From Bacteroidales bacterium (GTDB taxonomy: Bacteria; Bacteroidota; Bacteroidia; Bacteroidales; UBA932): a stretch of 54,885 nt of DNA. The translations under genes were made by a program, and so were the position numbers. The DNA lies in the NCBI GenBank assembly GCA_017617475.1, contig JAFZWC010000055.1, positions 1-54,885 on the forward strand, written 5' to 3'. Below the pieces are notes generated by a model, which did not search any database, was not told the DNA's origin, and saw nothing but the letters and a program-made list of their open reading frames with translations. Positions 4,919 to 51,689 of this stretch are shown here, one piece after another. Numbering within the stretch: position 1 is the first letter of the stretch; each line of letters opens with the position of its first letter.

Positions 4919-5850
4919 TGCCTACATTAAAGGAAATAAAGGGCCGGATTTCGTCGGTCAAGAGTACGCTGAAGATAACGTCGGCCATGAAGCTGGTGTC
5001 GTCGGCCAAACTGCGCAAGGCGCAGAACGCCATCGAGGCCATGCGGCCCTATGAGGCGACGTTGCTGGATATGCTGACGGCTGTCAGTGGTGTCATGCCT
5101 GGGACCGACCGGACATCTCGGCTGATAGCGGAAAGCGGAGAGTTTTCCGTCGCTAAAATGATGGCCGATGCTCCGGAAAACTCATCCGCTTCCCGGCCTA
5201 CGGTCATCATTGCCATTGCTTCCAACTCTTCGCTTTGCGGCGGGTTCAACGCCAACGTCATTGCCAAGGTGCGCAGCGTGCGGCAGCCTGGCGACATCGT
5301 GTACTCCGTGGGCCGCAAGATGGCCGATGCCATGCGTCGCGATGGGTTTACCACGCCGGAAGACCTGAACGCCCTTATCGAGCATCCTTCCTATGGCCCT
5401 GCCGCTAAATTGGTGGAGAAACTGGCCGATGATTGCAAGGAAGGCCGCGTAGAAAAGGTGCTCCTGGTGTACACCCACTTCGTCTCCACCGCCAAGCAGG
5501 TGCCGGTGGTGGAAACCCTGCTGCAGAAGGCGGGAGGGGACTCCCTTTCCGTAGCATCGGCCCTCTCTTTAGCGGAGGAAAAGGAGTCCTCCTCCCGGGA
5601 GGACCTTCTCATCGAACCCGGGCGTAAAGAGCTTCGTGCGGCGCTGGAGCCCAAGACGCTCAAGCTCAAACTTTACGCTGCGCTGCTGGACAGCTCGGCC
5701 GCGGAGCACGCCGCCCGCACCGTGGCCATGCAGACAGCCACGGACAACGCGGAGAACCTCCTTTCCGAACTCACCCTTCAGTACAACAAGGGCCGTCAGC
5801 AGAAGATCACTTCCGAGATTCTGGACCTGGCCGGCGGTCAGACGGAATAG
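4918..5850 (+). CDS. atpG: F1Fo ATP synthase subunit gamma with two palindromic inserts
   Basis: Gamma is the central rotor shaft. The product is 310 residues, somewhat longer than the roughly 290 usual for the family. The conserved ends are intact: the N-terminal helix (RISSVKSTLKITSAMKLVSSAKLRKAQ), SNSSLCGGFNANV in the middle, and the C-terminal helix (MQTATDNAENLLSELTLQYNKGRQQKITSEI). The extra length is in two low-similarity loops, at about residues 71-93 and 205-227. Each loop is encoded by a complete copy of the roughly 65-bp type 2 palindromic element. Both loops fall where gamma subunits vary in length, so the protein is probably functional. This is the last gene of the atp operon in the window. 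Confidence 0.96.
   Translation: MPTLKEIKGRISSVKSTLKITSAMKLVSSAKLRKAQNAIEAMRPYEATLLDMLTAVSGVMPGTDRTSRLIAESGEFSVAKMMADAPENSSASRPTVIIAIASNSSLCGGFNANVIAKVRSVRQPGDIVYSVGRKMADAMRRDGFTTPEDLNALIEHPSYGPAAKLVEKLADDCKEGRVEKVLLVYTHFVSTAKQVPVVETLLQKAGGDSLSVASALSLAEEKESSSREDLLIEPGRKELRAALEPKTLKLKLYAALLDSSAAEHAARTVAMQTATDNAENLLSELTLQYNKGRQQKITSEILDLAGGQTE
5130..5194 (-). repeat. Type 2 palindromic element, copy 1 (in frame in atpG)
   Basis: The left arm at 5130-5149 (ending AGAGTTTTCCG) pairs with the right arm at 5174-5194 (starting CGGAAAACTC) over about 20 positions with one bulge. The core between the arms reads, on the minus strand, CGGAGCATCGGCC, six bases, TTAGCG. It encodes about residues 71-93 of gamma. 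The orientation is opposite to copy 2. Confidence 0.8.
5532..5596 (+). repeat. Type 2 palindromic element, copy 2 (in frame in atpG)
   Basis: The left arm at 5532-5551 (GGGAGGGGACTCCC then TTTCC) pairs with the right arm at 5576-5596 (GGAAAAGGAGTCCTCCTCCC), allowing G-T pairs and one bulge. The core is CGTAGCATCGGCC, six bases, TTAGCG. It encodes about residues 205-227 of gamma. The arms are unrelated in sequence to those of the first copy 340 bases upstream. Confidence 0.8.
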
Positions 5851-5856
5851 TTTTAT

Positions 5857-5864
5857 TATCTTTG
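5857..5864 (+). promoter_or_regulatory. Bacteroidota -7 promoter element TATCTTTG
   Basis: A perfect match to TAnnTTTG, 16 bases upstream of the M20 dipeptidase ATG at 5881 and just after the atpG stop. No clear -33 TTTG is found at the usual 19-21 base spacing, so strength is uncertain. Confidence 0.6.
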
Positions 5865-5880
5865 TGCAAAAGCCACAAAG

Positions 5881-7242
5881 ATGAAAAACTATATCCAAGA
5901 AAACCGGGAACGCTTTTTTGAAGAGCTGTTTTCCCTTTTGCGAATCCCTTCTGTCAGCGCCAAGCCGGAGCACAAACCGGACATGTACAAGTGTGCCGGG
6001 CGCCTGGTAGAGCTTCTTAAAGAGGCCGGGGCCGATGACGCCGCCGTGTACGAAACCGCCGGCCACCCCGTGGTCTATGGCTTCAAAGACATGGGTGCAG
6101 AAAAGACCGTGCTGGTGTACGGCCACTACGACGTCCAGCCCCCGGAACCGCTGGAGAAATGGCGCACGGACCCCTTTGAACCTGTGATAGCCAAGGACCC
6201 CGCCACCGGCGAGGAGGCCATCTACTGCCGCGGCGCCAACGACGACAAGGGCCAGCTTTTCATGCACATCAAGGCCTTCGAGTTCCTGCTGCGCACGGGT
6301 CGGCTCAAGCACAACGTTAAGTTCATCTTCGAGGGCGAGGAAGAGATTGGCAGCGGCTCCCTGCCCGCGTGGGTAGAGTCCCATAAGGATCTGTTGAAGG
6401 CCGATGTCATCCTGGTCTCCGACACCACCATGATAAGCGAGAAAGTGCCGTCCATCAACTGCGGCATGCGCGGCCTGGCCTATCTGGAAGTAAAGGTGAC
6501 AGGCCCCAACAAAGACCTCCATTCCGGCCATTACGGCGGTGCGGTGGCCAACCCCATCAACGAGCTCTGCGCCCTTATAGCCTCGCTCCACGATGCTGAC
6601 GGCCGCGTCACCATTCCCGGCTTTTACGACGACGTGGTGGAGTTGTCGGCCGATGACAGGGCCCTCCTGAACAAGGCACCCTTCGACATGGAGGAATACA
6701 AGAAGTTCCTGGATATCAAGGAAGTGAAAGGGGAGAAGGGCTATACCACCCTGGAGCGTACCGCCATCCGGCCCTGCCTGGACGTGTGCGGCATCTGGGG
6801 CGGCTACACGGGAGTGGGCGCCAAGACGGTGCTGCCTTCCGTGGCCCACGCCAAAGTATCCATGCGGCTGGTGCCCTGGCAGACATCGGCCAAGATTACC
6901 CAACTGTTTCTGGAGCACCTTCAGCGCATTGCACCGCCTTACATTAAGGTTGAGGTGACGCCTTGCGAGGGCGGCGACGGCTTCCTCATTCCCATCAGTT
7001 CGCACGCCTATCAGGCGGCTTCCAAGGCCATGAAGGAGGTGTACGGCATAGAGCCCGTCCCGGCCCGCGGCGGCGGTTCCATAGCCATCCTGGCCGATAT
7101 GCAGCGCATCCTGGGAATCGATCCGCTGCTCATGGGCTTCGGCCTGGAGCGCGACACCATCCATTCGCCCAACGAGAGTTACCTCCTGCGCCAGCTCTTT
7201 GCCGGAATGGAATCCATTGTTGGATTTTATAAGTATTATTAG
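5881..7242 (+). CDS. M20 family metallodipeptidase
   Basis: A cytoplasmic zinc dipeptidase or exopeptidase of the M20 (ArgE/DapE/ACY1/CPG2) family, 453 residues. No signal peptide is present. Metal-site motifs are visible: VYGHYDVQPPEP (His82, Asp84), RGANDDKGQ (around Asp121) and EGEEEIGSGS (catalytic Glu and metal Glu around 153-155). The dimerisation or lid domain lies between about 190 and 310 (GMRGLAYLEVKVTGPNKDLHS), and GFGLERDTIHSPNE near the C-terminus holds the last metal His. The N-terminal wording (LFSLLRIPSVSAKPEHKPDM) is typical of Bacteroidota dipeptidases of this size. Substrate cannot be read from the sequence. It has its own promoter motif 16 bases upstream and follows the atp operon. 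Confidence 0.92.
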   Translation: MKNYIQENRERFFEELFSLLRIPSVSAKPEHKPDMYKCAGRLVELLKEAGADDAAVYETAGHPVVYGFKDMGAEKTVLVYGHYDVQPPEPLEKWRTDPFEPVIAKDPATGEEAIYCRGANDDKGQLFMHIKAFEFLLRTGRLKHNVKFIFEGEEEIGSGSLPAWVESHKDLLKADVILVSDTTMISEKVPSINCGMRGLAYLEVKVTGPNKDLHSGHYGGAVANPINELCALIASLHDADGRVTIPGFYDDVVELSADDRALLNKAPFDMEEYKKFLDIKEVKGEKGYTTLERTAIRPCLDVCGIWGGYTGVGAKTVLPSVAHAKVSMRLVPWQTSAKITQLFLEHLQRIAPPYIKVEVTPCEGGDGFLIPISSHAYQAASKAMKEVYGIEPVPARGGGSIAILADMQRILGIDPLLMGFGLERDTIHSPNESYLLRQLFAGMESIVGFYKYY

Positions 7243-7289
7243 CTGTTTTTCCAGAAAAGTGTTACCTTTATAGGCTAAAACTGAACAAA

Positions 7290-8207
7290 ATGAAAGAAAT
7301 CCTTCAGACCCTGGGAACCTGGAAGTTCTGGAAAGAACTCATCATCATGTCGGTGGCCATGCTCATAGCCGCTGCCGCCGTGTATTATTTCCTTATGCCC
7401 AGCAACCTGGTCATCGGTTCCATCACCGGTTTGTCCATGGTCATCTCCGGCCTATTCGGCCTGGCGGGCATGACGGTGAAGGTGTCCGTGGTGGTGACCA
7501 TTATCAACGCCATCCTGCTGGTCCTGGCCTGGTTCCTCATCGGCGCGGAGTTCGGCGCCAAAACCGTATACACGGCCCTTATCCTGGGTCCCTTCATCGA
7601 GTTCTGGGAGAAGGTGTTTCCGGTGAGTCGCATTATGGAACCCGGTTCCACGTCGCTGATGGGAGACCCCTGGTTCGACCTCCTGTGCTTCGTGCTCATC
7701 CTCAGCGCCTCGCAGACCATCCTCTTCCATATCAACGCCTCTACCGGCGGTCTGGATATTCTGGCCAAGATTGTGAACAAATACCTGCACTTCGATATCG
7801 GCACTTCTGTGACGGTGGCCGGCGCCCTCATCTGCTGCACAGCCTTCTTCATCAACCCGTTCCGGCTGGTGATTATCGGCATCATCGGCACCTGGATCAA
7901 CGGCCTGGCCCTGGATTACTTTACCGCCAGCCTGAACCGCCGCAAGCGCGTGTGCATCATTTCTTCCCGCTACGAGGAAATCCGCAAATACATTATTGAA
8001 GACTTGCAGCGCGGCTGTTCCCTGTACAATGTTACCGGTGGCTATAACGGTCATCAGAACATTGAAATCCAGGCCCTGCTTACCCAGGACGAGTTCGCCA
8101 GCCTGATGAATTACCTCAAGAATAATGATATCCATGGTTTCATCACGGCGGGCAACGTAAGTGAGATTTATGGCGACTGGAATCAGAAAAAGAAGAAAAA
8201 GCATTAA
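7290..8207 (+). CDS. YitT family membrane protein (DUF2179 C-terminal domain)
   Basis: An integral membrane protein of 305 residues with about five to six hydrophobic helices over residues 15-210 (for example ELIIMSVAMLIAAAAVYYFLMPSNLVIGS). A soluble C-terminal DUF2179-type domain follows from about 215 (CIISSRYEEIRKYIIEDLQRGCSLYNVTGGY), ending in a Lys-rich tail. The family is widespread and its transport role is not established. A near-consensus promoter (TACCTTTA, about 7263-7270, one mismatch) precedes it. It is read alone, between an M20 peptidase and a HAD phosphatase. Confidence 0.9.
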   Translation: MKEILQTLGTWKFWKELIIMSVAMLIAAAAVYYFLMPSNLVIGSITGLSMVISGLFGLAGMTVKVSVVVTIINAILLVLAWFLIGAEFGAKTVYTALILGPFIEFWEKVFPVSRIMEPGSTSLMGDPWFDLLCFVLILSASQTILFHINASTGGLDILAKIVNKYLHFDIGTSVTVAGALICCTAFFINPFRLVIIGIIGTWINGLALDYFTASLNRRKRVCIISSRYEEIRKYIIEDLQRGCSLYNVTGGYNGHQNIEIQALLTQDEFASLMNYLKNNDIHGFITAGNVSEIYGDWNQKKKKKH

Positions 8208-8337
8208 AAATTTTTCACCGTTTGCCAGTTTTGGCACGGTATTGGAATAATGTGGTATCAGACATAAATATTGATACCTTACTATAAATCCCGCCGCCAT
8301 TTGTGAAAATCGCGAGCGGGAATTTCTTTTAAAGTAT

Positions 8338-8345
8338 TAACTTTG
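8338..8345 (+). promoter_or_regulatory. Bacteroidota -7 promoter element TAACTTTG
   Basis: A perfect TAnnTTTG ending only 7 bases before the HAD phosphatase ATG at 8353. It implies an extremely short leader of a few bases. The rest of the 8208-8352 gap holds a short inverted repeat (TCCCGC at 8289-8294 with GCGGGA at 8316-8321) and nothing else recognisable. Confidence 0.6.
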
Positions 8346-8352
8346 TGTCCGT

Positions 8353-8964: not shown

Positions 8965-8970
8965 ACCGCC

Positions 8971-10323: not shown

Positions 10324-10324
10324 G

Positions 10325-11749
10325 CTATTCGCCCTTGTCATCTCGAGCGAAGTCTCCTTTGTCATCTCGAGCGAAGTCGAGAGATCTATACCTCAGCGTA
10401 AGATATCCTGCCCTTATGGCCAAATGCATGAAATAGGCGGCCATCAGAAGATGGATGGCGGCTTCCGGCGTGGTCATGAAGCGCTCTCCCGCGAACCAGA
10501 CGGAAAAGAAACCCACGGCGCACAGCAGCGTGCTGTTGCGCAGGGCTTTGGAAGCCGTGGCGCCTATGAAGATGCCGTCCCACACAAAAGCGGGGCAGCC
10601 GATAACCGGCATCAGCAGCAGCCAGGGCAGGAACTGACGTCCGGCGTCCACCACGGTGGCGTCCTCTGTCATCAGATGCAGGATGGGGATGCCGCCCAGG
10701 CCGTACAGCAGCATGAAGAATACGGCCATCCCCGCGCCCCAGAGGAAGGTCTGGCGCACGGTGGAACGCACCCCGTCCTCCGAGCGCTCGCCAATGAACC
10801 GGCCCGTAAGTGCCTCACCGGCATACGCGAAACCGTCCGTGAAATAGCTGAAGAACATGAGGAGTTTCATGAGGATGGCGCTCACTGCCAGCAGCACATC
10901 CCCATACCGGGCCGATATCACCGTAAACCCAATGTACACCGCAATCATCCCTATAGACCGCAGGAACAGGTCCCGGTTCAGCGCGAAGAAGCTAACATCC
11001 CCGGCCTGACCGGGGATCTCCTTCCTCAGCGTAACCCCATACCTTCTCCTGGCGGCAATCACGCAATAAGTGAACCCGCTCCACTGGGCCAGGAAGGTGC
11101 CCAGCGCTATGCCCGGGAAGCCGATGACTATGCCCAGCAGCACGGAGGCGCCAATGTTGATAAAGTTTACCAGCAGGTCGGCCGTCATGGGACGCACGGT
11201 ATCCTGCAGGCCGATGAACCAGCCCTTGAAGGCAAAGAGCGAAAGCGTAGCCGGCGCCGCCCAGATGCGGATGTAGAAGTACTGCGAGGCCAGGGCCTGC
11301 ACCTCCGGAGAACAGTCTACCAGCAGGAACGCCAGCTTCACCACCACCCACTGCAGCGCAATGAGCCCCAGGCCGGAAAGAAAAGCAATCCGCAGCGCCC
11401 GCCGGAGGATGCCGTTAATCTCTGCGTGAGCACCAGGGGCTTTCCATGCACACCGACCGTCCGAAAAACCTTCTCCGTGTGCATCAGAGGCCTTTTGTGC
11501 ACACGCGCGGCCGTAGGCCTGCGCCGTGAGGCCTCCCGTTCCCACCCGGAGGAAGCCGAAGTTCCAGTACAGGAGGTCGAACAGCATGGCGCCGATGGTA
11601 ATACCGCCGATAAGCGCCGCCGCCGAAGCGCCGGGCAGATGCCCCGCCACGGCCATGTCCACCATTCCCACCAGGGGGACGGTGATATTGGCCAGGATGC
11701 TGGGAAGCGCCAGGCGCAGTATTTCCCTGTTTAATTTCATGCCATTCAA
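10325..11749 (-). CDS. MATE family efflux transporter with repeat-derived insert and tail
   Basis: A multidrug/toxin extrusion antiporter in the inner membrane, 474 residues, about 12 helices. The N-terminus (REILRLALPSILANITVPLVGMVDMAVAGHL) is diagnostic for the DinF/NorM group. Two features are odd. Residues of about 82-110, directly after TAQAYGR, are an insert encoded by DNA with three alternating TGCACAC/GTGTGCA repeats. The last 20 residues (from SLDFARDDKG) are encoded by two tandem type 1 repeats. Neither part is expected in the family. The start may be 11749 or the ATG at 11740 (MKLNREIL). A type 2 palindrome separates it from rsgA upstream. Confidence 0.9.
   Translation of the reverse strand: MNGMKLNREILRLALPSILANITVPLVGMVDMAVAGHLPGASAAALIGGITIGAMLFDLLYWNFGFLRVGTGGLTAQAYGRACAQKASDAHGEGFSDGRCAWKAPGAHAEINGILRRALRIAFLSGLGLIALQWVVVKLAFLLVDCSPEVQALASQYFYIRIWAAPATLSLFAFKGWFIGLQDTVRPMTADLLVNFINIGASVLLGIVIGFPGIALGTFLAQWSGFTYCVIAARRRYGVTLRKEIPGQAGDVSFFALNRDLFLRSIGMIAVYIGFTVISARYGDVLLAVSAILMKLLMFFSYFTDGFAYAGEALTGRFIGERSEDGVRSTVRQTFLWGAGMAVFFMLLYGLGGIPILHLMTEDATVVDAGRQFLPWLLLMPVIGCPAFVWDGIFIGATASKALRNSTLLCAVGFFSVWFAGERFMTTPEAAIHLLMAAYFMHLAIRAGYLTLRYRSLDFARDDKGDFARDDKGE
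10336..10387 (+). repeat. Dispersed repeat type 1, tandem pair forming the MATE C-terminus
   Basis: Two head-to-tail copies start GTCATCTCGAGCGAAGTC at 10337 and 10361; the second ends GAGATCT at 10387. On the minus strand they are translated as the duplicated peptide DFARDDKG at the end of the MATE protein. Confidence 0.8.
11420..11506. repeat. Intragenic insert with alternating TGCACAC/GTGTGCA repeats in MATE gene
   Basis: TGCACAC at 11447-11453, GTGTGCA at 11477-11483 and TGCACAC at 11498-11504 can form two alternative hairpins. The segment corresponds to about 28 residues that interrupt the MATE family sequence between TAQAYGR and INGILRRAL. The length keeps the frame open. It is not obviously related to repeat types 1 or 2. 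Confidence 0.5.
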
Positions 11750-11751: not shown

Positions 11752-11818
11752 AGTCCGGAAGAAGCGCTTCCCTCCGCTAAAAAAAGGCCGATGCTCCGGG
11801 AAGAGCTCCTTCCGGACT
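11752..11818 (-). repeat. Type 2 palindromic element, copy 3 (rsgA-MATE junction)
   Basis: The arms AGTCCGGAAG (11752-11761) and CTTCCGGACT (11809-11818) are perfect 10-bp complements, and pairing continues inward to a stem over 20 bp with a few mismatches. The minus-strand core is CGGAGCATCGGCC, five T, TTAGCG. The outer end supplies two bases of the rsgA TAG stop (11817-11819). The hairpin fills the whole gap to the MATE gene. Confidence 0.8.
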
Positions 11819-12782
11819 ATCTGAACTTTTTATCCTCTTCCAACATGCCTAAATAGGAGTTGTAGCGCTCCGGGGAGATGATGCCGGCGTCCACGGCGGC
11901 CTTGACGGCGCAACCGGGTTCGTGGGTGTGGGTGCAGGGGGTGAAGCGGCAATCGGCCGATGCCCGCAGCATCTCGGGGAAGTACTTGGCAATTTCCTCC
12001 TTTTCCACATCCACCAGTCCGAAGCCGCGGATGCCGGGGGAGTCAATCACATAGCCGCCGCTAGATAGCGGGTACATCTCATATAGGGAAGTGGTGTGCT
12101 TGCCTTGCAGATGCGCAGCAGAAATGGCGCCGATCTTGGGATCCAGGGAAGGGTCCAGCGCCTTGATAAGGGAGCTCTTTCCCACGCCGGATTCCCCTGA
12201 AAACAGGTTCACGCGGCCCTTGCATGCCTCCCGGATTTCGGCGATTCCCTCGCCGGTTTTCACGGAGGTCTCTATTACCGGATAGCCGGCGCCTTCGTAG
12301 ATGGTGCGGAAGTGGGCTATTTCATCGGCCGCCATTTCCCTGTACATGTCCGTCTTGGAAAGGACGATGGTGGCGGGGATGCCGTAAAGTTCGCAAGTGA
12401 CCAGGATGCGGTCCAGGAAGGGCAGTTTGATTTCTGGAAAGAAGAGCGACACCACCACATACGCCCTGTCTACGTTGGCGGCGATGATGTGCGCCTGGCG
12501 GGACAAGTTGGTACTCCGGCGAATCACGTAATTCCGACGGGGAAGGATTTCCGTAATCACCGCCGTTTGCCCGGACGTTTCTGTCATACCGAGCGGAGCG
12601 AGCGTATCTCCTGCCCATCCGTACCTGACCCTGTCTCCCACGGCCACGGGGTTGGTGATTTCGCTGGCCTTGAGCCTAACCTTGCCGCGCAGCACGGCCG
12701 GGAACAGGTCCCATGCCGGCAACTCGGACAGCAGATAATGGCTGCCCGCATTCTTTACCACCGTTGCTTCACCGCTCTTCAT
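11817..12782 (-). CDS. rsgA: Ribosome small subunit-dependent GTPase A with repeat-encoded insert
   Basis: RsgA is a circularly permuted GTPase that checks late 30S ribosome assembly. The product is 321 residues. An OB-fold at the N-terminus is followed by permuted G motifs: G4 as VLSKTDM, G1 as GESGVGKSSL, and G3 as DSPGIRGFG. A zinc domain has the pattern CRFTPCTHTHEPGCAV. Within the OB-fold, residues 58-67 (DTLAPLGMTE region) come from a type 1 repeat inserted in frame, and the family has no such segment there. The start at 12782 (MKSGEATVV) is set by family alignment, as the frame stays open far upstream with no homology. The promoter motif on the minus strand ends 4 bases before the ATG, implying an almost leaderless mRNA. 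Confidence 0.94.
   Translation of the reverse strand: MKSGEATVVKNAGSHYLLSELPAWDLFPAVLRGKVRLKASEITNPVAVGDRVRYGWAGDTLAPLGMTETSGQTAVITEILPRRNYVIRRSTNLSRQAHIIAANVDRAYVVVSLFFPEIKLPFLDRILVTCELYGIPATIVLSKTDMYREMAADEIAHFRTIYEGAGYPVIETSVKTGEGIAEIREACKGRVNLFSGESGVGKSSLIKALDPSLDPKIGAISAAHLQGKHTTSLYEMYPLSSGGYVIDSPGIRGFGLVDVEKEEIAKYFPEMLRASADCRFTPCTHTHEPGCAVKAAVDAGIISPERYNSYLGMLEEDKKFR
12582..12610 (+). repeat. Dispersed repeat type 1 inside rsgA
   Basis: Reads TGTCATACCGAGCGGAGCGA then GCGTATCTC. On the rsgA strand it is translated as GDTLAPLGMTE, keeping the frame. This is a clear case of the repeat contributing residues inside a conserved housekeeping protein. Confidence 0.8.
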
Positions 12783-12786
12783 GGCA

Positions 12787-12794
12787 CAAAGATA
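12787..12794 (-). promoter_or_regulatory. Bacteroidota -7 promoter element for rsgA (TATCTTTG)
   Basis: A perfect TAnnTTTG on the minus strand, ending 4 bases before the rsgA ATG. Transcription would begin at or very near the start codon. It lies back-to-back with the fucosidase promoter, 11 bases apart. Confidence 0.55.
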
Positions 12795-12805
12795 GCGAAA
12801 ATGAC

Positions 12806-12813
12806 TATATTTG
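12806..12813 (+). promoter_or_regulatory. Bacteroidota -7 promoter element for the GH29 gene (TATATTTG)
   Basis: A perfect TAnnTTTG 23 bases upstream of the fucosidase ATG at 12837. It is divergent from the rsgA promoter. No good -33 element is seen. Confidence 0.55.
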
Positions 12814-12836
12814 TAAGGATAACCGCATAATTGAAG

Positions 12837-14219
12837 ATGAAAAAACTCGCCTTTGTATTTGTCTCGGCCTTGATGGCCCTGTCGGCCTGTGCACAACAGA
12901 AAAGCCTGCACCAGCTGCAGCAGGAATTCGTAGACCTGCGCTTCGGCATGTTTATTCACTTCGGCCTGCCCACTTTCCAGGAGGCCGACTGGACAGATCC
13001 GCAGCTGAGTCCGGAGGTGTTCAACCCCGTCAAACTGGACACGGACCAATGGGTGAAGGTGGCCAAGAGCGCCGGAGCCAAATTCATCTGTATTTCCGTG
13101 AAGCATCACGCCGGATTCTGCATGTGGGATACGGCCACCACGGATTACAGCGTCATGAACACGCCGCTGCACCGGGATGTGCTCAAAGAGCTGGTGGAAT
13201 CCCTGCGGAAGGAAGGCATGCAGATTATGTATCATTTCTCCATTCTGGACACCCATCACGGCATTCGGCCTACCCTGCCGTTCACGCCGGAGAAGACGGC
13301 TTTCATCAAGGAACAGCTGCGGGAAATCCTCACCAACTACGGCCCGGTGAATACCCTTATGTTTGACGGCTGGGACGCCCCCTGGGGCCGCATTTCCTAC
13401 CAGGACATCTCCTTCCCGGAGATCTACGACTTCGTCAAGAGTCTGCAGCCCAACTGCCTGGTGATGGACCTCAATGGCTCCAAATATCCGGAGGAGGCCC
13501 TCTTCTATTCCGACATCCGCTGCTACGAGCAGGGCGCCGGACAAACCATATCGGCCGATGTGAACAAGCTCCCGGCCATGGCCTGCTACCCGCTCCAGCG
13601 CACCTGGTTCTGGAAAGAGGAATTCCCCACGGCCGAATTGAAGGACGTGGAGGAGATTGTGCGGGAGAACATCATCCCCTACGGCCAGGCCTACTGCACT
13701 TATATCCTCAACGCCGCCCCCAACCGCGACGGCCTCATTGACGACAACGCCGCAGCGGCGATGGCCCGCATCGGCCAGCTTTGGAAAAATACCGGGCACA
13801 TTGTGAACGTCCCCAAGGCCCCCGCTCCCATTACGGAAATCAATCTGGCCGTGGGCAAACCCTGCGACTCCTCCTGGTCCGAGGACATGATGATCATGGA
13901 TTTTGCCAACGACGACAACTTCAGCTCCCGCTGGATCTCCAGCTCGCAGGTGAAAGAGCCCTGGTGGGGCGTAACGCTGGACCCTGGCACGCCCGTGGGC
14001 ATGGTGGTGGTGACGGAGGGAAAGGCCGATGTTCTCCAGTCCTTCCAGCTGGAACTGCTGCAAAACGGTAACTGGACGCCTGTCAAGGCCAAAGAAGAAG
14101 GTGCCGGCCGCGTCCATATCCTCCGCTTCTCCCAGCGTCCGGCAGATGCCGTCCGTCTCCGTTTCCTCAAGTGGAACGGCGAACTCTCCATTGCCGAAGT
14201 GGGGGTGTATAACAAATAG
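12837..14219 (+). CDS. GH29 alpha-L-fucosidase lipoprotein with C-terminal F5/8-type domain
   Basis: An exported glycosidase that removes alpha-linked fucose from glycans, 460 residues. The signal peptide ends in the lipobox LSAC (Cys about residue 19), so it should be lipid-anchored. The GH29 barrel occupies about residues 25-325: FGMFIHFGLPTF, KFICISVKHHAGFCMWDTATTDY (conserved HH), and TLMFDGWD, whose Asp (about 177) matches the catalytic nucleophile. A discoidin-like (F5/8 type C) domain covers about 340-460 (NLAVGKPCDSSWSED to ELSIAEVGVYN). The start at 12837 is preferred over a TTG 6 bases earlier. An MBL hydrolase follows after 5 bases. Confidence 0.93.
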   Translation: MKKLAFVFVSALMALSACAQQKSLHQLQQEFVDLRFGMFIHFGLPTFQEADWTDPQLSPEVFNPVKLDTDQWVKVAKSAGAKFICISVKHHAGFCMWDTATTDYSVMNTPLHRDVLKELVESLRKEGMQIMYHFSILDTHHGIRPTLPFTPEKTAFIKEQLREILTNYGPVNTLMFDGWDAPWGRISYQDISFPEIYDFVKSLQPNCLVMDLNGSKYPEEALFYSDIRCYEQGAGQTISADVNKLPAMACYPLQRTWFWKEEFPTAELKDVEEIVRENIIPYGQAYCTYILNAAPNRDGLIDDNAAAAMARIGQLWKNTGHIVNVPKAPAPITEINLAVGKPCDSSWSEDMMIMDFANDDNFSSRWISSSQVKEPWWGVTLDPGTPVGMVVVTEGKADVLQSFQLELLQNGNWTPVKAKEEGAGRVHILRFSQRPADAVRLRFLKWNGELSIAEVGVYNK

Positions 14220-14224
14220 GCGGC

Positions 14225-15211
14225 ATGAAAAGAACCATTCTGATAACGGCCCTGATGGCCTTTGCGTTCGTGGCCGCAGGCCAGGAGCGCGCATGGGAGT
14301 ACTGGCGCAATCCGGACGGGTATATCCGTCACCAGGCCGATGTTGTCCTGGGGCTGGTGGACCGGACGCTGCAGGAGCATCCGGCCAGTGCGGCTCCTTC
14401 GGCCGAAAGGCAGCTGGCGCTGGCTGCGCTGGACGCCATAGTGCACGATACGGCCAACGACGATTCCCCGGAGCTGCATGCCTTCATGGATACCCGCATA
14501 GGGCGGGTGCTGGAGCAACTAAAGGGGAAAGCGCCCCGGAAAGGGTTGGAAATCTTCAAGTTATACAACGACGGATTCATCGTCCGCTCCCGCAGTTTCA
14601 CCATCGGATTCGATCTTTGCGGCACGCGCGGCCAGGTGAAATGGATTCCCGACGATGTAATGCAGGAGCTGGTGCATCAGTGTGACGTCCTGTTCATCTC
14701 GCATCGCGATCCGGACCATGCCGACGCCAACGTGGTACGGATGGCCACGGAACGCGGCATCCCGGTCTATGCCCCGGAGGATTATGACAACCCTGCAGTA
14801 ACGCACGTGCGGCAGGATTTCTCTGCCGGAATATTGCAGGTGCAACTGCTTCCCGGGCATCAAGATAACCTGCAGAACAACATCTACGTGGTCACCTTCC
14901 CGGAGGGGAATACCGTAGCCCATTGTGGAGACCAGTACAACCGCGAAGACCTTCCCTGGCTCAAGATCGTTTCAACGCAGTTAGCCCGCCCCCTGGATGT
15001 CCTGATTATTGACTGCTGGGCCCTGGAGCTGAAGGAAACCATCCAGGGCTTCGCTCCCAGAACGGTAATCTTCGGCCATGAGAACGAGATGGGCCACACC
15101 ATAGACCACCGCGAGGCCTTCTGGCTCACGCAGCACAAGCTGGACACCATGGCCCTGCCCATCCCCGGCGTCATCCTCTGCTGGGGAGAAGGGTATCGTT
15201 ATAAGAGATAA
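14225..15211 (+). CDS. Exported metallo-beta-lactamase-fold hydrolase
   Basis: A predicted secreted hydrolase of 328 residues. The N-terminus (MKRTILITALMAFAFVAAGQ) is a signal peptide. An MBL fold is indicated by FISHRDPDHADANV, where the usual HxHxDH becomes HRDPDH: His160, Asp162, Asp164, His165, so the second metal-binding His is Asp. Downstream LLPGHQDN, AHCGDQYN and FGHENEMGH supply further likely metal ligands. Residues 20-110 form a helical region without a recognised domain. It sits 5 bases after the fucosidase gene, so co-transcription is likely. The substrate is unknown. Confidence 0.8.
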   Translation: MKRTILITALMAFAFVAAGQERAWEYWRNPDGYIRHQADVVLGLVDRTLQEHPASAAPSAERQLALAALDAIVHDTANDDSPELHAFMDTRIGRVLEQLKGKAPRKGLEIFKLYNDGFIVRSRSFTIGFDLCGTRGQVKWIPDDVMQELVHQCDVLFISHRDPDHADANVVRMATERGIPVYAPEDYDNPAVTHVRQDFSAGILQVQLLPGHQDNLQNNIYVVTFPEGNTVAHCGDQYNREDLPWLKIVSTQLARPLDVLIIDCWALELKETIQGFAPRTVIFGHENEMGHTIDHREAFWLTQHKLDTMALPIPGVILCWGEGYRYKR

Positions 15212-22998: not shown

Positions 22999-25900
22999 AT
23001 GGATCAAAAAACCTTCAAGAAGTGGAATTGGATTGTGGCGCTGGCCGTTTTGGTCATTTCCAGCGTTACATATCTGTCTTCTATAGAGCCCACGGCGTCT
23101 TTCTGGGACTGCGGTGAGTTCATTGCTTCATCCTACAAACTGGAAGTGGGTCACCCCCCGGGAAACCCCGTGTTCCAGCTCCTGGCCCGCTTCTTCACCA
23201 TTCCGGTGAACGCCCAGCATGCCGCCGTGGCCGTGAACGCCATGAACGCCATCCTGAGCGCGCTCACCATCTTCCTGCTATACTTCACCATCGTCTTCTT
23301 TGCCAAGAGGGTGGTGCTGGGGGGGACGAATGATCCCCGCCGTAGCATCGGCCCTATTTTAAGCGAAGGCGGGGACATTCGTCCCGCACAGGCCATCGCC
23401 ATCTTCGGCGCTGGGGCTGTCGGCGCTTTGGCGTACTGCTTCTCCGACACCTTCTGGTTCAGTGCGGTAGAGGGTGAAGTATATGCCATGTCGTCCTTCT
23501 TCACCGCCCTGGTCTTCTGGGCTATGTGCAAATGGTACGACCAGGCCGATGAACCCCACGCCAACCGCTGGATTGTGCTCATTGCCTTCCTCATGGGCCT
23601 GAGCATCGGCGTACACCTGCTGAACCTCCTTACCATCCCGGCCTTCGTCTTCATGTACTACTACCGGAAGAACGAAGACAAGCAGCTGCCTTTCAAGAAG
23701 TTGGTGGGCATCTTTGCCATCGGCGTGATCATCGAGTTCCTGCTGGTGTACCTCTTTATTCCGTACTTCCCCAAGACGGCCGCCTGGTTCGACCGCATCT
23801 TCGTGAACGGCTTCGGCCTGCCTTACAATTCCGGCGCGCTGTTCTTCCTGGTGGGTGTGCTGGCCCTCTGTTTCTGGGGCCTTTTCGTCACTTTGAAGAA
23901 GGAAAAGGTATTCCTCAATACCGTGCTGCTGTGCGTGACCACGCTGGCCATCGGCTTCTCGCTGTTCGCCATCGTAATCATCCGTTCCAGTGTGAAAACG
24001 CCCACCAACGAGTATCAGCCCGATAATCCCTACACCCTGGTGCGTTACCTGAGCCGCGAGCAGTATGGCTCTACGCCGCTGCTCTACGGCCAGTACTTCG
24101 GCGCCCCGTACGAGATTAAGAGCGGCACCTACTGGGCCCCGCTGGACGGAAAATACATCAAGGCCACCGCTCCGGCCGACGCCGTGTACAACCCGGAAGG
24201 CAAGATGCTCTTCCCCCGCATGTGGTCCAATGCCGACCAGCGCTACATAGACTTCTATCAGGAATATACCCAGGGTAAAGGCACCCGCATCAGAGGCACG
24301 CAGCACCGCAAGCCCACCTTCGGGGCCAACATGAGGTATTTCTTTGATTACCAGCTTAACTGGATGTACTGGCGTTACTTCATGTGGAACTTTGTGGGCC
24401 GCCAGAACGACATCCACAGCCCGCTGCCCGGCAACGTGTTCAACGGCAACTGGGAAAGCGGCATCTCCTTCCTGGACAACATCCGGCTGGGAGACCAGTC
24501 CTACGCCCCGGAACCCCTGCGGAACAACAAGGGCAAGAACCACTATTTCTTCCTCCCGCTGCTGCTGGGTCTGCTGGGCCTGGTGTTCCAGTTCGACCGC
24601 GACAAGCGCGGAAGCTGGCTGGTGTTCCTCATGTTCTTCATGACGGGCATCGCCATTGTGATGTACCTGAACCAGCCGCCTTACCAGGTGCGTGAGCGTG
24701 ACTACGCCTACGCTGGCTCCTTCTACATGTTTGCCATCTGGATAGGCCTGGGTGTGGCTGCGCTGTACCAGTGGATTACGGAGAAAGCCCAAAAGGCCGA
24801 TCCCAAGCTGGTGGCCGCGGGCGCATCGGCCCTCTGCCTTCTGGTTCCCGCCCTTATGGGCGCCCAGAACTGGGACGACCACAACCGCTCCCACCGCTAC
24901 ACGGCCCCCGAGATGGCTTACAACTACCTCAATTCGGTAGGGCCCAACGGCATGCTGGTAACCCATGGCGACAACGATACTTTCCCGCTGTGGTATGCCC
25001 AGGAGATTGAGGGCGTACGCACGGACGTGCGGGTGGTAAACACCTCGCTGCTGGGAACGGACTGGTACATTGACCAGATGAAGTGGGCCTGCAACGAGAG
25101 CAAGCCCCTGCCCCTCACCGTGCCCGCCAGCCAGTACCTGTACGGCACCAACGAGTTCGTGTACATTGCCTACGACGACGGTTCGCCCATGCTCATCCAG
25201 GATGTGATGGACGTCTTCAAGGATCCCAAGATGAAGGTGGCCCTGGAGGACGGCAGCAAGATGGACTTCATCTGTGCCCGCAACATCGTGATTCCGGTGA
25301 ACAAGGAAAACTGCATCAAGTACGGCATTGTGCCCGAGAAGTTCGCCCAGGAGATTCCGGACCAGATTATGCTCACCATGTCCAAGGACAAGAACTACAT
25401 CTCCAAGCCGGAACTCTTCATGCTGGATCTGCTGTCCAATTACAACTGGGACCGTCCGCTGAGCCTCCTGAGCCAGGGTGGTGACCTCAATATCGGCATC
25501 AAGGATTACCTGATGTATGACGGCTATTCCTACCGCTTCACGCCCATCAAGAACAAGATCAGCACCACGGATGCCGGCAAGGTGGACGCCCTGGAGCTGT
25601 ACGAAAAGATGAAGACGGTGTACAAGTGGGATGCCCTCAAGCGCACCGACTGGTTCGTAGATTACCAGAACATGTACACCTTCCTGGGTGTGCTGAGCCA
25701 GCGCCAGCTGTTTGTGACGGTAGCCAATGCCCTCATCGACGCCGGCGAACCCGAAAAGGCCCTGGAAATCCAGGACATGTGCCAGGAGTGCTTCCCGGAA
25801 GAGAATTTCCCGCTGGAATCCATCTCCCTGGGCTTCTCCGGCAACGACTATATGGTGGCCCAGATCATAGAGAACTACTTCCACCTGGGCGAGGCCGATA

Positions 25901-44980: not shown

Positions 44981-44991
44981 ATGAGAATACT

Positions 44992-45795: not shown

Positions 45796-45796
45796 T

Positions 45797-45922
45797 TGTC
45801 ATCCTGAGGCCCTTGGGCCGAAGGATCTGTAAACCACAGATTCTTCGCTACGCTCAGAATGACAAGAGGACCCAAAATGACAAGAAATTGTCATCCTGAG
45901 GAGCATTGCGACGAAGGATCTC
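45797..45922. repeat. Dispersed repeat type 1, three copies upstream of merR
   Basis: Copies at 45797-45829 (forward), 45838-45864 (inverted) and 45889-45922 (forward). They fill most of the 172-base trmB-merR gap. The first copy has a longer arm containing GGCCCTTGGGCC. Confidence 0.8.
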
Positions 45923-45952
45923 CAGTTGACCTGTTTTGTCATATATTTTTGC

Positions 45953-45960
45953 TAACTTTG
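45953..45960 (+). promoter_or_regulatory. Bacteroidota -7 promoter element TAACTTTG (merR)
   Basis: A perfect TAnnTTTG ending 7 bases before the MerR ATG at 45968; another case of a very short predicted leader. Confidence 0.6.
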
Positions 45961-45967
45961 TAAGGTT

Positions 45968-47070: not shown

Positions 47071-47088
47071 TTAATCAGTAATTAGAAT

Positions 47089-47916: not shown

Positions 47917-47923
47917 TCCCGTA

Positions 47924-49408
47924 ATGGCCGAAAGCCCTCGCAAGAACCGCCGCCCGGCAGAGCCCCTCAATCTGGAGACCCTCATGGGGAACAAACCCCC
48001 GCAGGCCCTGGACGTGGAGGAGGCCGTGCTGGGCGCCATGCTGGTAGAACCCGCCACCATAGACGAATCTATGGAGGAGCTCTCGGCGTCGTGTTTCTAC
48101 GACCCGCAGCACCGCATGATCTTCGAGGCCATGGCCGAACTGGTGAACGAACACGTCTCCATCGACCTGGTCACCGTGAGCGAAAAGCTCCGTTCCAAGG
48201 GCAACCTGGAGGCCGTGGGCGGTCCTGTGGTGCTGGCCGGCCTGTCGCAGAACATCGCCGCCGCCGCCCACATAGAGTACTACATCAAAATCCTCAAGCA
48301 GAAAACCATCCAGCGGGACCTCATCACCGCCTCGTACGAGATTCTGAAACAGTCCTTTGACGAGTCCACCAACGTGGACGACCTCATTGACAACGCCCAG
48401 ACCAAGGTGTTTGCGGCCATTCAGAACAACGTGAAGAGGGATGTCCAGGACATCGGCTCCATCATCAACAGCGTGCTGGACAACCTGCAGGAACTGCAAA
48501 ACACCACGGGCCTTTCGGGCGTCCCCTCCGGCTATCCGTCCATTGACCGTGTCACCCAGGGCTGGCAAAAGAGCGACCTCATTATCCTGGCCGCCCGTCC
48601 GTCTGTGGGTAAGACGGCTTTCGCCCTCAATATTGCCCGCAACGCGGCGGTAGAGAGCAACATGCCCGTAGCCGTCTTCTCCCTGGAAATGAGTGCCGAC
48701 CAGCTGGGCAAGCGCCTCATCACCACCGAGAGCGGTCTCTCCGGAGAAAAGATCAAGGGCGGTGTAAAGCTGGAGCAGTACGAATGGGTGCAGTTGGAAG
48801 ACACCCTCAAGCGCCTGGCCAAGGCTCCCCTGTACATAGACGACACCCCCGGCATTCCCATCATGGAATTCCGCACCAAGGCCAAGCGCCTGGTAAAGCA
48901 GAAGGGCGTGCGCCTGATAGTGGTGGACTACCTCCAGCTCATGCAGGGCCCCGTGGAGCTGAGAGGCCTGCGCGAACAGGAAGTGGCCGCCATTTCCCGT
49001 ACCCTCAAGGCCACCGCCAAAGAACTCAACATCCCCATCATAGCCCTGTCCCAGCTGTCCCGTAATGCGGTTCAGCGCACAGGCGGCACGGGCAAACCCC
49101 AGCTGAGCGACCTCCGCGAATCCGGTTCCATTGAGCAGGATGCCGATATGGTCATCTTCATCCACCGTCCGGACTTCGTGGGCATGTCCGAGAATCCGGA
49201 AGACCGCGAGAAGGCATACATCGTAATAGCGAAGCACCGTAACGGTGAGGTCTGCGACATTGAAATGAAGTACAAGGCCAACCAGGTCAAGTTCATAGAG
49301 CCGGACCAGAGCCTGGATGTCTATGCCCAGCAGGGCCCTGTGGCCAGCGCCGCCAACGAGCCCGGCCCGCAGGGAAACTACAACTTCGAAGACCAGCAGG
49401 ATTTCTAG
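47924..49408 (+). CDS. dnaB: Replicative DNA helicase DnaB
   Basis: The hexameric 5'-3' helicase that unwinds DNA at the replication fork. The product is 494 residues. The N-terminal DnaB domain (PQALDVEEAVLGAMLVEPATIDESMEEL) is followed by a linker and the RecA-like domain. Walker A is LAARPSVGKTAFALNIA (Lys230), Walker B lies in RLIVVDYLQLMQG, and the C-terminal DADMVIFIHRPDF motif is present. No intein interrupts it. The start at 47924 is chosen by homology. DUF3108 follows 3 bases later. Confidence 0.96.
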   Translation: MAESPRKNRRPAEPLNLETLMGNKPPQALDVEEAVLGAMLVEPATIDESMEELSASCFYDPQHRMIFEAMAELVNEHVSIDLVTVSEKLRSKGNLEAVGGPVVLAGLSQNIAAAAHIEYYIKILKQKTIQRDLITASYEILKQSFDESTNVDDLIDNAQTKVFAAIQNNVKRDVQDIGSIINSVLDNLQELQNTTGLSGVPSGYPSIDRVTQGWQKSDLIILAARPSVGKTAFALNIARNAAVESNMPVAVFSLEMSADQLGKRLITTESGLSGEKIKGGVKLEQYEWVQLEDTLKRLAKAPLYIDDTPGIPIMEFRTKAKRLVKQKGVRLIVVDYLQLMQGPVELRGLREQEVAAISRTLKATAKELNIPIIALSQLSRNAVQRTGGTGKPQLSDLRESGSIEQDADMVIFIHRPDFVGMSENPEDREKAYIVIAKHRNGEVCDIEMKYKANQVKFIEPDQSLDVYAQQGPVASAANEPGPQGNYNFEDQQDF

Positions 49409-49411
49409 CCC

Positions 49412-50221
49412 GTGCGCAGGTGGATTCTCATACTAAGCCTCTGCCTGGCAGCCCAGCTCTCCCTGGCACAGGAGAACTACCCCTTCCGAAACGGTGAAAC
49501 CGTCACCCTCTCGGTCATGTTCAAATGGGGCGCCATCAACAAAGAAGTGGGTACGGCACGCCTGCAGATAGATTCCCTCCGCTTTGATGGAGACAGGGTG
49601 TACCACCTGGGCTGCAAAGCCTGGACGGTCCCGTTCTTCGACCGTATTTACAAAATAAGGGAAGACCTCCAGAGCTGGGTGCGGGTAAAGGACCTGCGCC
49701 CCTTGCGTTTTACCCGCAGCACCTACGAGGGCGGCTACACCGCCTCCAACGAATACAACTACAACTGGGAAGAGGGAAAGATAGAGGCCGACGTCACCTT
49801 CGAGAACAAAGGCCCCCAGAGGTTGGAAATTCCCATCAAGGATGGGGAGTACGACCTCATAGCCCTGCTGTACCACATCCGCCGGCTTGACCCTTCGGCC
49901 TACCAGAAAGGCGCCGTAACCAAGGTGCGTTTCGCCATTGACGACAACGTCTTTGACGTATACATCCACGCCAACGGCATGGAAAACATCAAGATCCGCA
50001 AGCAGGGCCGAATGAATGCCTGGCACCTTTCCTGTTCGGTGGTGCAGGGCGCCCTCTTTGACGGAGACGAGGACTTGCACCTCTGGATATCGGCCGACGG
50101 CAACCGCATCCCGGTGGCTGCCAAGGTGCCCCTCAAAGTGGGAGCCGTACAGGCCTGGCTTTCCGGCTGGAGCGGCCTCAAGAACCCTTTTGACGCATGG
50201 ACCGATGGGCGAAAACGTTAG
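49412..50221 (+). CDS. DUF3108 domain exported protein
   Basis: A predicted periplasmic protein of 269 residues starting at GTG 49412. Signal peptide MRRWILILSLCLAAQLSLA. The DUF3108 pattern is present: NGETVTLSVMFKWGAINKEVGTARLQI, YKIREDLQSWV, then RFTRSTYEGGYTASNEYNYNW. The family is a lipocalin/YceI-like beta protein of unknown role. It overlaps the RseC gene by 17 bases. Confidence 0.85.
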   Translation: MRRWILILSLCLAAQLSLAQENYPFRNGETVTLSVMFKWGAINKEVGTARLQIDSLRFDGDRVYHLGCKAWTVPFFDRIYKIREDLQSWVRVKDLRPLRFTRSTYEGGYTASNEYNYNWEEGKIEADVTFENKGPQRLEIPIKDGEYDLIALLYHIRRLDPSAYQKGAVTKVRFAIDDNVFDVYIHANGMENIKIRKQGRMNAWHLSCSVVQGALFDGDEDLHLWISADGNRIPVAAKVPLKVGAVQAWLSGWSGLKNPFDAWTDGRKR

Positions 50222-50615
50222 TCATATTGGAAAGATAGTACGGATAACCCCTCAGGTTACCACCGTATCCATTCTGCAGCACGCCGCCTGCGGGGAATGC
50301 CACGCGGCAGGCCTGTGCGGCATGGCCGATCTGGCCGAAAAGACGGTGGAAGTGCCCACCGACCCCTACGCCTTCCGCAACGTGGGAGACCAGGTGGAAG
50401 TGCTCCTCAAGGCCTCCATGGGCATGAAGGCCGTCTGGCTCTGCTATGCCATTCCGCTGGTAATCCTCCTGGGCACCGTCCTGGGCCTAATGGCCCTGGG
50501 TGCCCCCGAAATCCCTGCGGCCTCTGCGGGCCTCGGCGCCATCGGCCTATACTACATTGGCCTATACTTGTTCCGGAATAAACTAAGGAATGAATATGTT
50601 TTCACTATAAAATAG
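50205..50615 (+). CDS. rseC: RseC/SoxR-reducing-system family membrane protein
   Basis: A small membrane protein of 136 residues. N-terminal cysteines HAACGECHAAGLCG (three to four Cys) precede two membrane helices (VWLCYAIPLVILLGTVLGLMAL and AASAGLGAIGLYYIGLYLF). RseC-like proteins accompany rnf operons and are linked to SoxR reduction in E. coli; here the rnf genes follow. The start at 50205 is set by the family. The 105-base gap to rnfB holds an inverted pair of type 1 repeats. Confidence 0.88.
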   Translation: MGENVSHIGKIVRITPQVTTVSILQHAACGECHAAGLCGMADLAEKTVEVPTDPYAFRNVGDQVEVLLKASMGMKAVWLCYAIPLVILLGTVLGLMALGAPEIPAASAGLGAIGLYYIGLYLFRNKLRNEYVFTIK

Positions 50616-50618
50616 TAT

Positions 50619-50686
50619 TGTCATACCGAGGCCCGAAGGGCCGAGTGTATCTCAATGAGATCCTCTCGCTTCGCTCGGGATGACAG
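50619..50686. repeat. Dispersed repeat type 1, inverted pair upstream of rnfB
   Basis: A forward copy (TGTCATACCGAGGCCCGAAG then GGCCGAGTGTATCTCA) at 50619-50654 and an inverted copy (GAGATCCTCTCGCTTCGCTC then GGGATGACA) at 50657-50686. It ends 34 bases before the rnfB ATG, and no TAnnTTTG is seen after it. Confidence 0.8.
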
Positions 50687-50720
50687 AAAGAATATTATAA
50701 CAACAATATAAAGATATCTT

Positions 50721-51689
50721 ATGGTAAACATCATCATTTGGACCATTGCGGTAGTGACCGTCCTGGGCCTTGTGCTGGCTCTGGTGCTCTACTTGGTAGC
50801 CCAGAAGTTCAAGGTGGAGGAGGATCCGCGCATTGATGAGGTGGAGAAGGTGATGCCCGGCGCCAACTGCGGCGGCTGCGGCTTCGCCGGCTGCCGTGCG
50901 TTTGCCGAGGCCGCGGTGAAAGCCCCCAACCTGGACAACAACTACTGTCCGGTGGGCGGCAACGACACCATGGCCAAGGTGGCGGCCATCCTGGGTTACG
51001 AGGTAACGGAGAAAGCCCCCATGGTGGCTGTGGTCCGTTGCAACGGCACCTGCGAGGCCCGTCCCAAGGTGAACCAGTACGACGGCTACGCCTCGTGCTA
51101 CGTGAAATCGCTCCTGTACACCGGCGACACCGGCTGCTCCTTCGGCTGCCTGGGTTGCGGCGACTGCGTGAACGCCTGCCAGTTCGGCGCCCTGTCCATG
51201 GATCCTGCTACCGGCCTGCCGGTGGTGGACCAGGAGAAGTGCACTGCCTGCGGCGCCTGCGTGAAGGCCTGCCCCAAGCGCATCATCGAACTCCGTCCCA
51301 AGGGCCCTCGCGGCATGCGCATGTACGTGAGCTGCATCAACAAGGACAAGGGCCCCGTGGCCAAGAAGGCCTGCGCCAGCGCCTGCATCGGCTGCGGCAT
51401 CTGCGCCAAGACCTGCACCCATGACGCCATCACCGTTGAAGGCAATGTGGCCTACATCGACCCCGCCAAGTGCAAGCTCTGCCGCGAGTGCGAGGCCATG
51501 TGCCCCACCGGCGCCATCCACGGCGTGAACTTCCCCAAGCCCCTGGACAAAGACGCCATCAAGGAGCGAATCAAGGCCCGTCAGCAGAAAGCGGCTGCAG
51601 AAGCTGCTGCCTCCGCTAATAATAAGGCCGATGCTCCGGCAGCAGCACCTGCTGCCGCTAAAGTGAAGGAGGAGAAGAAAGATGAGTAA
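50721..51689 (+). CDS. rnfB: Rnf electron transport complex subunit B
   Basis: RnfB is the ferredoxin-accepting Fe-S subunit of the Rnf complex. The product is 322 residues. One N-terminal membrane helix is followed by the 4Fe-4S domain ANCGGCGFAGCRAF and then four CxxCxxC motifs (CLGCGDCVNAC, CTACGACVKACP, CIGCGICAKTC, CKLCRECEAMCP). The last about 30 residues are an Ala/Lys-rich tail, of which residues 291-313 are encoded by a type 2 palindromic element. It overlaps rnfC by 8 bases. Order B-C-D-G-E is that of Bacteroidota Rnf operons. Confidence 0.95.
   Translation: MVNIIIWTIAVVTVLGLVLALVLYLVAQKFKVEEDPRIDEVEKVMPGANCGGCGFAGCRAFAEAAVKAPNLDNNYCPVGGNDTMAKVAAILGYEVTEKAPMVAVVRCNGTCEARPKVNQYDGYASCYVKSLLYTGDTGCSFGCLGCGDCVNACQFGALSMDPATGLPVVDQEKCTACGACVKACPKRIIELRPKGPRGMRMYVSCINKDKGPVAKKACASACIGCGICAKTCTHDAITVEGNVAYIDPAKCKLCRECEAMCPTGAIHGVNFPKPLDKDAIKERIKARQQKAAAEAAASANNKADAPAAAPAAAKVKEEKKDE
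51591..51658 (-). repeat. Type 2 palindromic element, copy 5 (in frame in rnfB)
   Basis: The left arm at 51591-51611 (ending GAAGCTGCTGCC) and right arm at 51638-51658 (starting GGCAGCAGCACC) are complementary at all but three of 21 positions. The minus-strand core is CGGAGCATCGGCC, six bases, TTAGCG. The arms consist of Ala codons, so the element blends into an Ala-rich tail. Confidence 0.8.

Follow-up and report, generated by a model that had tools for sequence, protein, structure and literature searches.

Rickettsia provides the best-known examples of short palindromes lying within protein genes, and their mode of movement is, to our knowledge, unsettled. The present analysis concerns five hairpins found in a 54,885-nt stretch of Bacteroidales DNA (contig JAFZWC010000055.1; this whole stretch is called the window) and their relatives in other genomes, together called family A. 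The five hairpins are members of a family of short mobile palindromes that is confined to one lineage, with a nearly constant loop and two arms that coevolve. Among known elements, the Rickettsia palindromic element (RPE) comes nearest, and the likeness to intragenic elements of Rickettsia drawn in the initial annotation of the window is an apt one.

RPEs are described in a review as elements of about 150 bp encoding a conserved peptide, which lie in frame in unrelated protein genes and are predicted to be compatible with the protein (PMC10969869). Family A shares with them the in-frame position of palindromes in unrelated genes (42 of 95 copies; atpG, TMEM260-like and RnfB-like genes). Going by that description, it differs in its length of about 64 bp, in the lack of a conserved peptide, in its fixed loop and in its covarying arms; two orientations and several frames are also used here. 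Repetitive extragenic palindromes (REPs) are described as being 20–50 nt long, as lying for the most part between genes and as having a tetranucleotide, usually GTAG, in front of them (PMC8266576). Many short hairpin copies are common to family A and to the REP/REPtron system of the TnpA-REP transposase, for which the same source gives recognition of the loop and of stem mismatches as a feature. Family A is however longer than REPs as described there, often intragenic, and devoid of a conserved 5′ tetranucleotide in 94 left flanks; most of the aligned copies have GKAG within the hairpin, directly beneath the loop. The repetitive hairpin-forming elements of sponge mitochondria, as described, have conserved stems and substitutions in their loops (PMC2800124). 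They resemble family A as invading short hairpins, whereas the described pattern of conservation is reversed in family A. Coding palindromes of nematomorph mitochondria lie within functional protein genes, their arms encoding conserved protein regions (PMC6649704); the likeness is that of inverted repeats in protein genes, and the abstract describes no dispersed shared loop. Classical miniature inverted-repeat transposable elements are not matched either, the arms being variable here and the excess of direct repeats slight (13 vs 7.8 and 5 vs 2.1). No description of a family A element was found in the open-access library covered, within the search terms used.

We regard it as rather probable that family A consists of non-autonomous mobile palindromes, which are inserted whole, constrained as one folded strand, and whose arms change together. 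The analysis suggests a selfish element required to fold as a single strand, in relatives of ruminant gut microbes. Insertion and arm evolution can be tested on its dozens of copies, on its empty sites and on its orthologous pairs, and it gives a strand-resolved signal that designates one single strand as the constrained form. Its loop is tied to an over-represented genomic word, and one core protein, the gamma subunit of ATP synthase, has taken up such inserts repeatedly.

Architecture and distribution of family A

The initial annotation had described five palindromes of about 65 bp with a fixed core and complementary arms. All five could be verified where it had placed them, with the core present and long complementary arms; they are listed here with the gene that hosts two of them.

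5130..5194, minus strand: family A hairpin at site 1 of atpG (ATP synthase gamma), in frame by atpG's own reading and scored one-sided by the codon test; loop strand antisense; peptide FSVAKMMADAPEN
5532..5596, plus strand: family A hairpin at site 2 of atpG, in frame; loop strand sense; peptide LSVASALSLAEEK
11752..11818, minus strand: family A hairpin at the junction of an open reading frame (ORF) with an RsgA domain (11817–14294, minus strand) and a MatE ORF (10328–11740, minus strand)
23322..23386, plus strand: family A hairpin, in frame within a TMEM260-like (PF11028) gene; peptide PRRSIGPILSEGGD
51591..51658, minus strand: family A hairpin within the C-terminal tail of an RnfB-like ferredoxin ORF, its frame taken directly from the start of the ORF, 870 bases upstream, and scored one-sided by the codon test; peptide ASANNKADAPAA
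4918..5850, plus strand: atpG, host of two elements, with varied inserts at both sites in many relatives

In a gap-free alignment of 29 copies, the family A unit is about 64 bp long, with 24-column arms and a 16-nt apical loop that begins with ATCGGCC and has a GC/GC closure. These copies were chosen for ATCGGCC and for pairing (G.T allowed), and the invariance of the loop among them is thus by construction. A ring of G.A mismatches usually lies just beneath the loop, columns 20–22 with 43–45 being often non-Watson–Crick and rich in G.A. The arms had been called copy-specific and unrelated between copies. Their internal pairing is borne out; the word unrelated went too far, given the weak consensus (approximately GGnGGGnGATGCnTTTTCC) common to the aligned copies and the identical or near-identical arms of some elements.

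A covariance model, R1, was trained on the same 29 copies. In the window, at E ≤ 0.05, it finds five places only, which are the five hairpins, two extra rows being opposite-strand readings of two of them. Three of the five were in the training set; the two others score E = 8.2e-14 (11754–11816) and 7.7e-13 (23322–23386). The initial annotation had advised a scan of relatives for further copies with such a model, and many were found: the 1.02 Mb of related DNA scanned, picked around earlier matches, gave 115 matches, which come down to 95 distinct copies. The lack of further copies, named there as grounds for refutation, did not come about. The 20 rows dropped are 18 opposite-strand echoes, one overlap (L164:9789) and the weak match L174:1982 (L numbers denote loci, G numbers genomes). 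The exact ATCGGCC is present in 83 of the 95 copies.

The distribution is narrow. Counts of R1 matches per genome, which take in some opposite-strand echoes and cross-matches to a second family, B, are 64 in G002, 63 in G001, 28 in G004, 19 in G003, 18 in G277, 13 in G231 and 11 in G222, with no match in 4 of the 16 genomes searched. R1 is positive in 18 of 101 genus genomes (family B cross-matches included) and, with stricter filters and 17 candidates scored per genome, in 2 of 295 order genomes, namely G001 itself and one weak match. A strict pattern is positive in one of 199 family genomes (G001), and R1 finds nothing in 160 kb of G020, a genome drawn at family level whose shown relation is that of the same family only. 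In a collection of species genomes, a pattern scan gave 30 places, 15 of them with complementary arms, all in five Bacteroidales metagenome-assembled genomes (MAGs; red deer, yak rumen, water deer, sheep and Tb.RUG.329). Arm pairing of these 15 is 11–19 out of 20 on a crude score, the lowest, L001, reaching 18/24 in later scoring; the remaining 15 places, found in other phyla, in Hufsiella and in another Bacteroidales MAG, score 7–10 on the crude scale. A scan of viral contigs gave a single place, without long arms.

Family B has another loop, ATTTGCCCGTACAGGGTCGCGAAGCGAC, on the same chassis of free arms and a GGAGC...GCGGA ring. Its model, R2, is positive in 12 of 20 genomes, most matches being in G004 (28) and G222 (17), family A cross-matches included. 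Minor loop variants (ATCGACC, ATTGACC and ATCGGCG) are also found. In two family B elements of G231 (L259 and L267), the 3′ GGA has become TCC, in full pairing with the 5′ GGA; this three-base change is of the kind produced by template switching. G277 also has different short palindromes grouped in clusters, in which CTGGACCTGGTCCA and CATCTTAAGCA motifs are seen (L169:14601–14750 and L173–L175).

Arm coevolution and a probable constrained strand

The two arms coevolve. In the 29-sequence alignment, 84.1% of arm cells are paired, as compared to 61.0% in shuffles, and the covariation score of 0.667 lies above every shuffle (0.210) and every slid control (0.12–0.20). The same is seen between orthologous sites. 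Forty-three occupied orthologous pairs were found, 29 in the same orientation and 14 in opposite orientations, some of the latter being neighbouring paired elements matched crosswise. Among the 317 arm cells that differ in the 29 same-orientation pairs, 168 are double changes from one Watson–Crick pair to another, 106 are one-sided changes making or breaking a pair, and 43 are others. The proposal that the arms coevolve to keep a hairpin, one of two offered by the initial annotation, is thus supported by covariation, by orthologous double changes and by a strand bias.

This bias was measured on 81 hairpins, selected from 2,662 ATCGGC sites by Watson–Crick pairs only. Read on the ATCGGCC strand, they contain 103 G.T and 39 A.C mismatches; G.T is the more frequent in 49 elements and A.C in 8. 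The excess does not depend on gene direction: the G.T:A.C ratio, counted on the 78 of the 95 copies that are exactly 64 nt long, is 19:8 for sense copies, 39:5 for antisense copies and 42:19 for other copies. It is 26:4 within a subfamily with a second G.A and 77:35 outside it, and every one of the six genomes has more G.T than A.C, if only slightly in the smallest sets (4:3 in the window, 2:1 in G002). No G.T excess is observed in the first eight positions outside the 64-mer (51 G.T vs 66 A.C, summed). Since an mRNA fold would reverse the sign in antisense copies, the constrained form appears to be the ATCGGCC single strand. These data suggest that a single strand, as DNA or as RNA, is under constraint and the mRNA is not, or else that this strand undergoes deamination while single-stranded.

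Strong hairpins, many of them in or beside genes, could also be expected from a structure acting at the mRNA level, such as a regulatory or terminator hairpin or a translational bypass. Both orientations occur, however, and the in-frame copies, expressed in mRNA terms, contain 24 G.U and 47 A.C, the antisense-coded copies showing A.C in mRNA where the loop strand has G.T. Open frames run through the element in 42 of 95 copies, and the window has no Rfam match at gathering scores. Bypass or an mRNA hairpin is thus disfavoured by strand and frame evidence, and we hold this explanation to be extremely improbable.

A mainly mutational origin of the pairing has more in its favour. The arms would then be homogenised mainly by quasi-palindrome template switching, without selection for folding, in an element that is inert after insertion. 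One orthologous pair (L191 in G003 and L195 in G002) differs by six double changes and by nothing else. Among the 81 hairpins, the ring triplet shows full pairing in 15, two pairs in 7 and at most one pair in 59, a distribution that hints at multi-base template switching. At the atpG sites, the loop orientation differs between species, with opposite orientations at one site in some of them. Yet homogenisation alone explains neither the loop-strand excess of G.T over A.C, which is seen whatever the gene context, nor the near-constant loop and G.A ring, and as a full account it looks unlikely.

Insertion, empty sites and candidate mobilisers

Under the reading favoured here, that of mobile palindromes inserted whole, an element of about 64 bp would insert with both arms and without clear target duplication. 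It would settle between genes, or in frame in protein loops and tails where the preferred frames of both orientations have no stop codons. The working unit would be one folded strand, with ATCGGCC in the apical loop and usually the G.A ring below, the stem sequence being largely free provided that pairing is kept. Paired arm changes would arise by compensatory substitution, probably aided by template switching within the palindrome, and the arms would be copy-specific because both keep changing together.

Eight presence/absence cases could be aligned, five of which are uninformative, being too diverged or occupied by other inserts. Two are clean empty sites. At the place of the window element 11754–11816, the junction in G001, G277 and G020 holds neither arm; the extra stretch in the window is of about 80 bp, exceeding the 63-bp match. 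The second is L012:7313 in G003, where G005 and G001 have neither the element nor either arm. Both arms were thus gained together at these two sites, and they were not built from target sequence there. Identical arms of 16+16 nt are moreover present at unrelated loci in two genomes (L103:19268 in G001 and L170:9697 in G277), which means that arms can travel with the element; close relatives of these copies show stepwise paired changes. The other proposal of the initial annotation was that the core alone inserts, one flank being then copied inverted from the local sequence, for example by template switching. It fails at the two clean sites and is contradicted by the shared arms, and the arm consensus also stands against it.

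Several observations weigh against the favoured reading, some of which would suit local copying. The clean empty sites are two only. At atpG site 2, there is a difference of 54 bp between G240 (L192) and G208 (L203); of the family B element of G240, the latter holds the right arm but neither the left arm nor the loop. Likewise, opposite the window copy at 23322–23386, G001 (L108, near 13070) shows a stretch resembling the right arm, with neither left arm nor loop. Such sites with an arm and no loop are also predicted by local copying. In G208, a deletion fits better because GTGGA, the closing motif of the element itself, has been retained, which suggests an in-frame deletion driven by the hairpin, with loss of the family B left arm and loop; for the G001 stretch, deletion and prior target are indistinguishable and the case is ambiguous. 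The comparison of empty sites, proposed as a way to recognise a pre-existing arm, has therefore given neither arm at two clean sites and a right arm or right-arm-like stretch at two ambiguous ones. Outside the 64-mer, complementarity persists in the copy-specific flank, with 53–63% of positions paired at +1 to +4 vs about 28% expected, and fades by about +12 (94 of 95 copies analysed). This is not explained by an element of fixed length and perhaps reflects insertion into small pre-existing palindromes, as is suggested by the empty site of G005 with its sequence TTTGC-AGACA-GCAAA. The base composition of the 94 left flanks reveals no conserved target tetranucleotide. The excess of direct repeats is slight (13 vs 7.8 for k=4 and 5 vs 2.1 for k=5), and target-site duplication is unconvincing on this basis. 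Elements related by descent do not count as independent events, nor do the orthologous pairs, some of which may have arisen by reinsertion at a hot spot. The G.T bias could be caused by strand-specific deamination and not by selection on the fold. In family B, this bias is small: the 22 unique copies have Watson–Crick pairs in 452 of their 484 arm cells, with 13 G.T and 6 A.C, and G.T exceeds A.C just outside the arms too (23 vs 15). The mobiliser is a further difficulty: searches across genomes covered two families, Y1 transposases (PF01797) and reverse transcriptases (PF00078), and no mobilising enzyme was identified. Y1 transposases occur whether or not a genome has elements, in 19 out of 20, and reverse transcriptases are missing from four of the six genomes rich in family A (G001, G002, G003, G004, G277 and G231).

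The extension of complementarity into the flanks, the lone right arms and the replacement of some rings by full pairs (such as GGA/TCC), as template switching would do, are what can be said for inverted copying of the target. Set against the armless empty sites, the identical arms at unrelated loci and the closing bases kept in G208, they leave this origin of the arms very unlikely.

For insertion, we infer a trans-acting factor that would recognise the loop and the G.A ring on single-stranded DNA, or RNA. The initial annotation had raised the question of a linked recombinase or reverse transcriptase, which was answered in part. No transposase, recombinase or reverse transcriptase is named among the 49 window ORFs searched against Pfam, a subset of the ORFs. 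Reverse transcriptases occur in 6 of 20 genomes and, being absent from G002, G003, G277 and G231, whose completeness is not stated, were rejected as the mobiliser. The association with Y1 transposases does not discriminate between genomes. One Y1 ORF of G001 (C24, L158:6048–8070), similar to the REP-associated tyrosine transposases (RAYTs), lies between two family A copies of the same orientation, which have one arm and about 11 bp of flanking sequence in common; it is a lead only. Family A could be an unusual REP mobilised by a REP-type tyrosine transposase (TnpA-REP/RAYT), Y1 genes being common and REP transposases being described as recognising hairpins in single-stranded form, together with their loops and stem mismatches (PMC8266576). 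The occurrence of Y1 genes does not follow that of the elements, however, and several of 12 other Y1 loci are flanked by their own, different short palindromes. With GTAG absent 5′ of the palindrome, frequent intragenic positions and variable stems, this relationship seems doubtful.

Host genes and the loop word

The codon-score test, applied to the 95 copies, gives 42 with the same frame on both sides and no internal stop, 37 with coding on one side, 10 with coding on neither side, 5 with different frames and 1 with a stop. The test is conservative, since the window copies at 5130 and 51591, in frame by direct reading, are scored as one-sided. The 37 in-frame copies with an exact ATCGGCC use three frames: 23 are read antisense as Ala-Asp-Ala, 9 sense as Ala-Ser-Ala and 5 sense as Ile-Gly, and none of the 37 uses the three remaining frames. 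Because the arms mirror each other, the antisense Ala-Asp-Ala and sense Ala-Ser-Ala orientations encode similar flanking peptides.

Both atpG sites and the TMEM260-like site contain varied inserts in many relatives, some resembling other palindromic families, in a survey of the best 120 of 8,000 scored homologues per search plus the genus genomes. From these sequences, the three sites look like hot spots in variable protein loops. At the place of the 51591 copy, G001, G004 and G277 also carry elements. Recurrent insert-like peptides (VMPGxDRAS, EIPGQAGND, ENYFSQGxAKNQFSS and VISSEAEKS) are seen at the atpG loci L189–L204 and in proteins P0001–P0120. The window itself is a bacterial housekeeping region, in which Pfam identifies F-type ATP synthase genes, an RsgA domain, lgt, dnaB and rnf genes.

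DNA uptake sequences are known from Neisseria (DUS) and Haemophilus (USS). The loop word of family A, GCATCGGCC, occurs at 27 sites in the window (14 plus, 13 minus), five of them inside the hairpins. It is present 329–594 times per genome in G001–G005, vs 36–48 for the reversed word, with 271 and 238 occurrences on the two strands of G001. Within coding sequences, observed counts exceed synonymous shuffles 5.7- to 8-fold in the window (22/2.75), G001 (139/20.75), G277 (60/9.3) and G231 (29/5.05), and there is no excess in those of the control genome G020 (4 vs 4.05 shuffled). Its count varies widely among the 101 genus genomes and is high in G240, G241 and G276. Since the family A model matches nothing in these three, the word is not merely hairpin debris. 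An origin in decayed hairpins was also rejected on the absence of the flanking consensus at 87 other sites, a set that retained a few hairpin copies missed by the filter, including window 23345. The balance of the strands in the window speaks against a skewed word of the Chi or KOPS (FtsK-orienting polar sequence) type.

In its distribution, GCATCGGCC resembles a DNA uptake sequence, being short, strand-symmetric and over-represented beyond codon usage. On this analogy it is possibly an uptake-like signal, one also abundant where no family A is found. No paper on an over-represented GCATCGGCC was found in a limited search. A bolder reading, quite unlikely in our opinion, would make family A a minimal mobile element existing in the form of a folded single strand, its loop bearing a host-wide, uptake-like recognition word and its stem being nearly free. 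Several loop families (A, B and the variants) would share one chassis of free stem, G.A ring and GC closing pairs and compete for the same hot spots in protein loops; their spread would be tied to a host factor reading the word, for example during natural transformation. Another pair of words, CAAGGCCAA/TTGGCCTTG, is about 14-fold above the order-3 Markov expectation in the window (10 vs 0.7).

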